Shown here: positions 22,004 to 59,515 of the stretch, piece after piece | Position numbering within the stretch: position 1 is the first letter of the stretch | Layout: each line of letters starts with the position of its first letter | Assembly: GCF_004001245.1 (NCBI RefSeq) | Contig: NZ_AP018724.1 | Location: forward strand, 2,534,501-2,598,500 | Direction of reading: 5' to 3' | DNA length: 64,000 nucleotides | Source of the DNA: Sulfurivermis fontis | GTDB taxonomy: Bacteria; Pseudomonadota; Gammaproteobacteria; Thiohalomonadales; Thiohalomonadaceae | Made by a program: the position numbers and the translations under genes | Notes under the pieces: generated by a model | What the model saw: the letters and a program-made list of their open reading frames with translations, nothing else | Databases searched by the model: none | What the model was told of the DNA's origin: nothing

Positions 22004-22963
22004 CTAGTCCATATACAGCGAACTGACCGACTCCTCGTTGTTGATGCGGCGCATGGTCTCCGCCAGCATCTCGGCGATGGACAGCACGCGGATGCGACTG
22101 CAGGCGCGCGCCTCGGGCCGCAATGGTATGGTGTCGGTCACCACCAGCTCGTCGAGCTGGGAGTTTTCTATATTCTGCACCGCCGGACCGGACAGCACAG
22201 CGTGGGTGGAATAGGCCGTCACCTTGGCGGCGCCGTGTTCTTTCAGCGCCTTGGCGGCCTTGCACAGGGTGCCGGCGGTATCCACCAGGTCGTCGACCAG
22301 GATACAGGTACGCCCTTCCACCTCACCGATGATATGCATCACCTGCGACTCATTGGCACGCGGACGGCGCTTGTCGATAATCGCCAGGTCCGCATCGTCC
22401 AGCCGCTTGGCCAGGGCGCGGGCGCGCACCACGCCACCCACGTCGGGTGACACCACCACCACGTCTTCCTTGTGGTTGTTCTTTCTGCGCCACACGTCGC
22501 CGAGCAGGATCGGCGAGGCATACACATTGTCCACCGGGATATCGAAGAAGCCCTGGATTTGGTCGGCGTGCAGATCCACGGTCAGCATGCGATCCACTCC
22601 GACACCGGTCAGCATGTTGGCCACCACCTTGGCGGTGATGGGCACACGCGCCGAGCGCGGACGGCGATCCTGGCGTGCATAGCCGAAATACGGCACCACT
22701 GCCGTGATGCGGCCGGCCGAGGCACGGCGCAACGCATCCACTATCACCATCAACTCCATCAGATGGTCATTGGTCGGCGCGCAGGTGGGCTGAACCACGA
22801 ACACATTCTTGCCGCGCACATTCTCCAGGATTTCCACCATGATCTCGCCATCGCTGAACTGGCCGACCACAGCCTTGCCCAGCCGCAGACCGAGATAGGC
22901 TGCGATGTCTTGTGCCAACTGCGGGTTGGCGTTACCCGCGAAGACCATCATTTCGGAAACCAT
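22004..22963 (-). CDS. prs: ribose-phosphate pyrophosphokinase
   Basis: 319 aa: [10 protein letters not shown], the catalytic-loop region [31 protein letters not shown], and the PRPP-binding motif [14 protein letters not shown]. Makes PRPP from ribose 5-phosphate and ATP for nucleotide, His, Trp and NAD synthesis. AGAGGA lies just before the ATG. Sits downstream of tRNA-Gln and ispE, the usual gammaproteobacterial arrangement. Confidence 0.96.
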
Positions 22964-22998: not shown

Positions 22999-23165
22999 TG
23001 GCTGGGGCGCTAGGATTACTCGGGGCTTCCGCCCCTCGCCCTGCGGGCCAGCGTCGCTGCGCTCCGCTGTTCCGGTTCGCCGCCGCGAACCGGTCGAACC
23101 TTACGGTTCAAATCCTGGCCGCCCAGCAACATGTTCCAGACCGCCTGCGGCGGCCTGAGTTTAGA
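22999..23165. repeat. tRNA-linked (rtT-like) repeat downstream of tRNA-Gln
   Basis: The last 19 nt of tRNA-Gln including CCA (23166-23184) recur exactly at 22999-23017, so the unit has a 167-bp period. The intervening 148 bp is GC-rich and palindromic (GGGGCTTCCGCCCC; GTTCGCCGCCGCGAAC; CGCCTGCGGCG). The second copy cannot be a tRNA because only the 3' end is present. Confidence 0.8.
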
Positions 23166-23240
23166 TGGCTGGGGCGCTAGGATTCGAACCTAGGTATGAC
23201 GGGATCAAAACCCGTTGCCTTACCGCTTGGCGACGCCCCA
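23166..23240 (-). tRNA. tRNA-Gln (anticodon UUG)
   Basis: A 75-nt cloverleaf on the minus strand with acceptor TGGGGCG pairing to CGCCCCA, discriminator G and encoded CCA; anticodon loop TTTTGAT; T-loop TTCGAAT. U1-A72 is typical of glutamine tRNA. Located between ispE and prs. Confidence 0.95.
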
Positions 23241-23248
23241 AAAAACAA

Positions 23249-23309
23249 AAATGTTGAATTTTGAATTCTGGCCGTCCGAAGGCGGACAAAACTCATAATT
23301 CAACATTCT
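23249..23309. repeat. intercistronic hairpin element, AT-rich word type (E10)
   Basis: Between ispE and tRNA-Gln. Left arm aatgTTGAATTTTGAATT, right arm AATTCAACATT, with a second GTCCG/CGGAC stem in the loop. An AT-rich version of the same build; might instead serve as ispE terminator or tRNA leader. Confidence 0.55.
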
Positions 23310-23334
23310 TCCCAACGCCCGTCCGAACCCGCGG

Positions 23335-59057: not shown

Positions 59058-59515
59058 ACAAACACACACTGTCACCCATGTCCCTGGACCCATCTGTTAC
59101 CGATGTATTTAGATCACCAGCGCACAGCTCTCACGTGACTGAGCCCGGAAGGCGAAGGAGCCCCGGTAGCCGGGCCTTGGCGGGCGAAGCAGCCAAGGTG
59201 TGCCGGCGTAGAGTCATTTGTGGCCAGGGCCTCAACGAGGCCCGTGGGACGCAGGACGTGCCGGGGCTGCGCGAAGCGCATGTTTGTCCTGAGTCCGAAT
59301 GTTGCCAGGGCGACTTGAAAGTCCCGTGGCGATGTGATGAGGACCAGGACACGCTTGTTGTGTTCTATGTTTTTAATCCTTTGACTTTCCGCCCCTCCCG
59401 TCTGCCGCGCCGACGATTCGGCAGGATAGCCGAATCGCACAGCCGTAGGCTGCCCGAAGGGTGAGGCACAGGGATGTGCCGAATGAAGCCAGGGCACCCG
59501 CAGGGCGCGGCAATC

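Follow-up and report, generated by a model that had tools for sequence, protein, structure and literature searches.

Small repeated elements of several kinds come close to the one described here, and the closest are the RtT RNAs (Rfam RF00391), represented in Escherichia coli by the rtT repeats and rttR of tyrT/tyrV. In the portions of the literature available to us, RtT RNAs of Actinobacillus were detected on northern blots and described upstream of tRNA genes (PMC4986893), a 175-bp rtT variable repeat is tabulated for Salmonella (PMC2658671), and a tandem GA motif has been noted in RtT (PMC7657543). A link between RtT and dispersed repeats has already been noticed in part: the same kind of excerpted text places an enterobacterial attenuator cluster that resembles rtT among the BIMEs (PMC2965389) and lists rttR as REP-containing (PMC12306157). 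Among the matches listed in our literature search, in which subscription journals were mostly uncovered, none linked RtT to T-loop insertion or to copies in protein genes. Palindromic repeats without an obvious tie to tRNAs are also relevant. The CGTC-tagged REPs, as far as the accessible text describes them, are stems of 8-9 bp with loops of 4-5 nt, A-T in the first two stem positions and an unpaired CGTC (or TGTC) tag at one end; they have intragenic copies and no linked transposase (Di Nocera et al., 2013; PMC3733652). Rickettsia palindromic elements (RPE) are described in the available text as repeats of about 150 bp that lie in frame in protein genes (PMC10969869, PMC3733652).

The locus studied here lies in a window of 64 kb (the whole stretch of DNA that was analysed) in the gene order ispE, tRNA-Gln, prs; ispE was identified by eye, and its homologue in the related genome G015 has GHMP kinase domains. 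An earlier reading, made from the sequence only, had claimed that the last 19 nt of tRNA-Gln recur exactly at 22999-23017. A search with AATCCTAGCGCCCCAGCCA bears this out, placing it on the minus strand at 23184-23166 and 23017-22999, with a period of 167 bp and 148 bp separating the two copies; the window has no other exact copy, its next-best 19-mer differing at 6 positions. Along the tRNA strand the order is intact tRNA, 37-nt spacer, left module TGCTGGGCGGCCAGGATTTGAACC, GTAA, GGTTCGA, 76-nt core and AATCCTAGCGCCCCAGCCA. The T-loop GGTTCGA^ATCC is split by the core at nt 58/59, and what lies past the split is the 19-nt repeat. The features are given below. R1 is a covariance model of the core without tRNA flank, built from 13 cores, two of them from the genome of the window; its structure was written by hand because a sequence-only core alignment blurred P1 and P2.

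23166..23240, minus strand: intact tRNA-Gln(TTG)/(UUG) with encoded CCA (ARAGORN; also called by Rfam RF00005 at 23169-23240, minus, 62.4 bits)
23166..23184, minus strand: first copy of the tRNA 3' tail, nt 58-76, CCA included (sequence match)
23129..23165, minus strand: spacer of 37 nt from the tRNA CCA to the RtT left module, without counterpart in the empty site of genome G014
23105..23128, minus strand: RtT left module, a partial reverse complement of the distal tail, making the closing helix (sequence and fold)
23094..23100, minus strand: GGTTCGA, the half of the T-loop before the core (sequence)
23018..23093, minus strand: core of 76 nt with successive hairpins P1-P4 (R1, 58.1 bits, E 2.6e-9, this copy being one of the 13 that built R1)
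22999..23017, minus strand: distal tRNA-tail copy of 19 nt with CCA, the half of the T-loop after the core (exact match)
22999..23134, minus strand: entire RtT-like element (Rfam RF00391, model 1-130, 38.8 bits, E 2.7e-6, gathering score 45)
22007..22963, minus strand: prs (ribose-phosphate pyrophosphokinase), downstream (PF13793, 1.4e-52; PF14572, 6.2e-31)
59414..59484, plus strand: second, dispersed core copy in the window, away from tRNAs (R1, 44.0 bits, E 1.1e-6)

The sequence-only reading had drawn a parallel with E. coli tyrT. Three rtT units are indeed found in MG1655 (at 1586, 1408 and 1230 of locus L186, a spacing of 178), one between tyrT and tyrV and two after tyrV, and the unit ends carry 19 nt of tyrT and tyrV. 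The window element likewise lies 3' of a tRNA, ends in the last 19 nt of that tRNA and has a similar period, and it matches RF00391 over the full length of the model, which takes the comparison beyond analogy. It differs from the E. coli repeats in being a single copy and in its host, tRNA-Gln(UUG) rather than tRNA-Tyr; its left module reads GGATTTGAACC, against GGAUGAGAACC in the Rfam consensus, and its score falls below the gathering threshold. Copies at the same tRNA-Gln/prs locus in G017, G016 and G011 score 49.2, 50.9 and 69.3 bits, all over model positions 1-130 and all above 45. Since the Rfam RtT model aligns with the window as well as with these same-locus copies, the E. coli parallel is one of homology. 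By that homology we would class the window element as a newly found member of the RtT family, although it scores below the Rfam cut-off.

The relatives also answer the objection that the second tail copy might be an isolated, unconserved one. It is present at the locus in other genomes, and a further 19-nt tail copy stands behind tRNA-Arg(ACG) of the same genome (see below). The stretch in G017 is 95% identical to the window over a 256-nt query, and G015 has a diverged copy (L035) that is not among the listed RtT matches. In the sister genome G014 the site is empty: the tRNA runs directly into the sequence that in G016 and G017 follows the second copy. With G011 taken as outgroup, an unrooted tree of prs places G014 inside the carriers of the element and the carrier G015 outside. 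Therefore the simpler reading is a precise loss in G014, for which recombination of the direct repeat may be responsible. In the genome G000 the tRNA T-stem is CTAGG/CCTAG and the distal tail also reads CCTAG, against CCTGG in both copies of G016 and G017, and the left module of G000 retains the base that formed a pair with the earlier tail. Here the tail has followed the tRNA against the pairing of the element itself, which points to copying rather than to selection for the helix of the element. Homogenisation of tails is not universal, because the G015 tail differs from its own tRNA at 3/19 positions. The gap between ispE and tRNA-Gln in the window holds an imperfect 28-nt inverted repeat (23247-23310), perhaps a terminator, and a similar palindrome is found in sister genomes.

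The spacer had also been described as GC-rich and palindromic, and folding agrees. The RtT unit of the window reaches -78.3 kcal/mol (z -5.4), a value that none of 200 shuffled sequences equalled. In the predicted structure the left module and the tail form a closing helix around five hairpins, with the terminal CA unpaired. Such a conserved hairpin structure closed by a tail helix is what characterises RtT; in the window copy the helix has mismatches, while the unit of G016 (-91.4 kcal/mol, z -7.9) is closed by 16 unbroken pairs. A single E. coli rtT unit gives -49.8 kcal/mol (z -2.7). When a longer stretch is folded, the left module can pair with the tRNA's own 3' end instead. In these models the helix of left module and tail would imitate the acceptor and T-stem of a tRNA. 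In the alignment of 89 distinct cores, standard pairs fill 98.1% of pair cells, against 71.5% after shuffling, and changes on both sides occur in 22/23 core pairs, figures that are flattered because the alignment was fitted to the model. Sliding the partners by one to three columns lowers pairing among the 89 cores to 44.0% or less.

How general is the arrangement? In the genome of the window, among 41 tRNAs with fetched flanks plus the tRNA-Met of the window, a copied tail within 500 nt was found only at tRNA-Arg(ACG) (L072). There the 19-nt copy lies 170 nt downstream and comes with a core of like kind; the terminator is duplicated as well. Rfam AaHKsRNA22, perhaps a relative of RtT, is a weak match to this RtT-like copy (L072 811-908; 29.7 bits, cut-off 39.8). 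Gene content and the occurrence of RtT suggest that the window belongs to the class Gammaproteobacteria of the phylum Pseudomonadota. RtT matches at E <= 0.01 occur in 80/369 genomes of the class and exceed the gathering score in 23; E. coli was the only one of 14 control genomes to have a match. For a comparison of tails we took 109 RtT rows, among the matches listed and with the own-genome row left out, and set aside 24 that had no same-strand tRNA within 700 nt upstream (contig ends, interrupted tRNAs and orphans). For each row, the best match lying no more than 25 nt from the end of the RtT hit was taken as the tail. In the 85 remaining, still among the matches listed, it was identical to the end of the upstream tRNA in 56, had 1 mismatch in 13 and 2 in 4, and was worse in 12; 73/85 are thus within 2 mismatches of their own tRNA, while tails of tRNAs for other amino acids never came below 3, a count to be read knowing that the Rfam model includes the AUCC...CCA tail and so favours such matches. 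RtT usually has such a copied tail.

Copied tails stand behind tRNAs for Gln, Ser, Tyr, Glu and Arg, to which the core-only model adds Asp and Pro, so that the recurrence at other tRNAs expected by the sequence-only reading is found. A candidate target rule, by which only tRNAs with A59 (AATCC) would be hosts, described 60/62 hosts found by Rfam after collapsing copies at one tRNA. It was dropped because the tail within the Rfam model biases it and because the Asp hosts, found with the core-only model, read AGTCC. In 73 rows (the 12 with tails beyond 2 mismatches left out; 62 after collapsing), the left module complements the tail of its own host better than tails of tRNAs for other amino acids (8.68 against 6.18) and exceeds the mean of the others in 60/73. 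This preference is strong at Gln, slight at Ser(GGA) or Arg(CCG) and absent at the sole Arg(CCT). A second arrangement is seen at six loci (L033, L034, L042, L143, L150 and L162), in which the T-loop of a tRNA-Gln or tRNA-Ser is interrupted by the core; these copies are without a normal CCA end and are sited upstream of an intact copy. One of the six, L162 (G141:C1:490761-492311), has three tandem 213-bp units followed by one intact tRNA-Gln, each unit consisting of a leader and a tRNA-Gln that carries the core in its T-loop.

The core is a four-hairpin unit of about 72-76 nt that also lives apart from tRNAs. The family is too diverged for BLAST, and covariance models were used for this reason: BLAST of the window spacer against its own genome returned, above noise, only its own locus and short matches, and an exact 40-nt core pattern had 0 matches in a collection of genome contigs that may omit the window's own and near genomes. 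R1 finds the three E. coli rtT units, which were absent from its training set. In the genome of the window it finds 19 places, one of them the tRNA-Gln training copy and the other 18 more than 5 kb from any detected tRNA. These 18 do not match the Rfam RtT model, and their homology rests on R1. Matches to R1 extend to 77/398 genomes of the phylum, 32 in the class of the window's genome and 45 in other classes, and 6/20 family genomes have no match at E <= 0.1. Cores are alike when they share a genome, not when they share a type of tRNA. In the 73 rows, similarity averages 0.652 for the same genome at a different tRNA, 0.555 for the same isoacceptor in another genome and 0.554 when both differ; none of 2000 permutations reached the collapsed value of the genome effect, also after regression on GC and length, and isoacceptor is without effect (956/2000).

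We fetched 30 R1 loci, with one core match each and a bias to high scores. In half of them (15/30) a tRNA stands within 700 nt, arranged as sought, and 9/15 of the tails are within 2 mismatches. At L208, L209 and L292 (tRNA-Pro, tRNA-Leu and tRNA-Phe) the core lies antisense within a second copy of the tRNA end; the tail of L292 was measured (2 mismatches), those of L208 and L209 were read by eye. At L292 an adjoining intact copy displays the pre-insertion site, GGA^ATC. The core is preceded by the dinucleotide (G/C)A in 18/18 copies of the window's genome, with exceptions in a further set of copies, and no clear target-site duplication was seen at core copies. Four cores of this genome (L220, L221, L227 and L218) start directly after ATGA, an overlap of stop and start codons. 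At L220 this is the overlap of two open frames, so that the upstream stop and the downstream start are both preserved. The window core at 59414-59484 adjoins a short tract, CTTTCTTTGGTTACTTTCTTTG, which also follows several other copies in the genome. Four head-to-tail cores without tRNA flanks, with a period of 67-68 bp, occupy L223 401-670 (G000:C1:1407157-1407426, minus).

Protein genes contain the core as well. The ispE gene of G015 has an in-frame core, 72 extra nt, that is absent from G000, G016 and G017, while G014 ispE seems to retain a short 3' remnant of it. In valS of G015 the core is in frame and antisense, and none is found in the other four genomes of the genus; 123 extra nt are present at this site, of which the core match makes up 70, and the match to the anticodon-binding domain is broken at the insert. 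This valS gene (L307 / L212) has another in-frame extra stretch downstream, again relative to the other four genomes. In the genome of the window, two paralogues of a ParB-like gene, a label taken from a Pfam match that is weak and below its cut-off, carry an in-frame core at a site that is empty in the third. At two further loci with long open frames over cores, L216 and L197, the recognisable protein (by eye) begins after the element, and we do not count them as coding inserts. The open frame over the core at L297 (HsdS-like by eye) had no Pfam match, and we do not present it as a coding insert. The proposal that an element targets tRNA 3' ends thus stands in part: tails are copied behind tRNAs, but the core splits the T-loop and is also found far from tRNAs and in protein genes.

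Compared with the palindromic repeats named at the outset, the core resembles CGTC-tagged REPs, as the accessible text presents them, in its intragenic copies, in the lack of a linked transposase and in its first hairpin, with a P1 stem of 9 bp and a loop of 5 nt in 63/89 distinct cores, 4 nt in 1 and longer in 25. It is unlike them in having four hairpins over about 72 bp and in occupying tRNA T-loops (PMC3733652). Membership in that family was considered and rejected, as CGTC or TGTC occurs in only 18/89 cores and the first stem pair is C-G, not A-T, in 76/89. With RPE it shares a palindromic make-up and in-frame insertion in protein genes (ispE, valS and the ParB-like genes), and it differs in being shorter and tied to tRNA T-loops, a comparison made by description, not by sequence, and limited to what the accessible text gives (PMC10969869, PMC3733652). 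In its mode of working, the element has RtT RNA on one side and, on the other, palindromic repeats that lie in frame, RPE and the intragenic REPs among them, in so far as these partly available sources describe them.

The reading that we favour, with a probability of about 0.7, is an RtT-family element: a mobile palindromic core set in a T-loop, that of a partly duplicated tRNA-Gln 3' end, with a helix of tail and left module that would permit trimming. The 12/85 RtT tails, among the matches listed, that differ from their tRNA by more than 2 mismatches speak against it. So do the diverged G015 tail, the match of only 9/15 tails at core-only loci near a tRNA, the tail built into the Rfam model, the failure of the 18 dispersed cores to match that model, the want of a clear target-site duplication and the outcome of the Y1 search given below. 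Could the repeat be a simpler scar? A directly repeated tRNA 3' end is what a tyrosine integrase leaves as attL/attR, with the 19 bp as attachment-site repeat, but the copies here enclose no integrase-bearing element, only 148 bp, into which an integrase gene would not fit; the same architecture recurs behind many tRNAs, is found in E. coli and also forms tandem arrays, and cores are also found away from tRNAs, so that this origin is barely credible. Slippage or unequal exchange alone, with the spacer as ordinary terminator-like DNA, would agree with L072, L209 and L292, where sequence past CCA (flank or terminator) is also duplicated; it does not provide for the same covarying four-hairpin core at the sites compared, and we consider it very improbable.

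Alternatively, RtT may be primarily a small RNA that is conserved and processed in tRNA operons, its tail kept for a function in processing or in pairing competition with the adjacent tRNA and its likeness to dispersed repeats incidental or secondary. The recurring left module, its better fit to the host's own tail and the strong structure are in keeping with this, as are the RtT RNAs of Actinobacillus pleuropneumoniae that the accessible text reports on northern blots, including one that is conserved throughout the Pasteurellaceae (PMC4986893). The position of the Pasteurellaceae RtTs upstream of tRNA genes and the good conservation of one of them, as given in that text, suit a functional RNA better. 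Yet it is the genome, not the tRNA, by which cores group; ispE, valS and phage-like genes contain cores of clear similarity; G014 has an empty site at this locus; and the tail in G000 has followed the tRNA contrary to the pairing of the element; on balance we think a primarily functional RNA unlikely. Movement of a non-autonomous element by a Y1/HUH transposase, of the RAYT or IS200/IS605 type, is compatible with the favoured reading and would explain how the core moves. The palindromic core can fold as a single strand and has no clear target duplication, the left flank ends in (G/C)A in the copies noted above, again with exceptions in the further set, and Y1_Tnp genes are present in 18/20 family genomes. 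Nonetheless, no GTAG or CTAC occurs within 8 nt of the ends in 18/18 copies of the window's genome, and rather than flanking Y1 genes, a core match was near only 2/20 fetched Y1 loci, one of them weak; a search for a transposase partner through Y1_Tnp in the 20 family genomes and 20 Y1 loci found none. Such a transposase is possible, though we regard it as doubtful.

On the favoured reading of a mobile core in a duplicated tRNA end, a palindromic DNA element would insert at many places and, at tRNAs, would persist only where there is a duplicated 3' end to receive the insert or to make the gene whole again. In the transcript, tail and left module could re-form a helix like an acceptor and T-stem, ending in CCA. 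RNase P and tRNA 3' processing may then trim the RNA of the element and render the insert harmless; judged from the modelled helix, the tRNA-like shape probably lets the element RNA be processed away. The suggestion that the repeat is a putative processing signal giving a second RNA is plausible. The tail might be kept identical to the tRNA through gene conversion between the two or because the duplication is recent, and the short direct repeat would permit precise loss of the element.

The wider proposition is that RtT is the tRNA-borne face of a widespread proteobacterial mobile palindromic element and not primarily a regulatory RNA. Such an element would insert in either orientation in T-loops, at start-codon junctions and in protein genes, often in frame, and would survive at tRNAs through the captured 3' end of its host, its transcript being trimmed. 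We put this general form at even odds. Within the view that RtT is a mobile element in its tRNA form, homology and dispersal are well supported and mobility moderately so. RtT has so far been an Rfam curiosity of tRNA operons. If the core is mobile, then copied tRNA ends, repeat arrays of variable copy number and in-frame inserts would share one explanation, and the tolerance of a tRNA for an insert in its T-loop would become testable.
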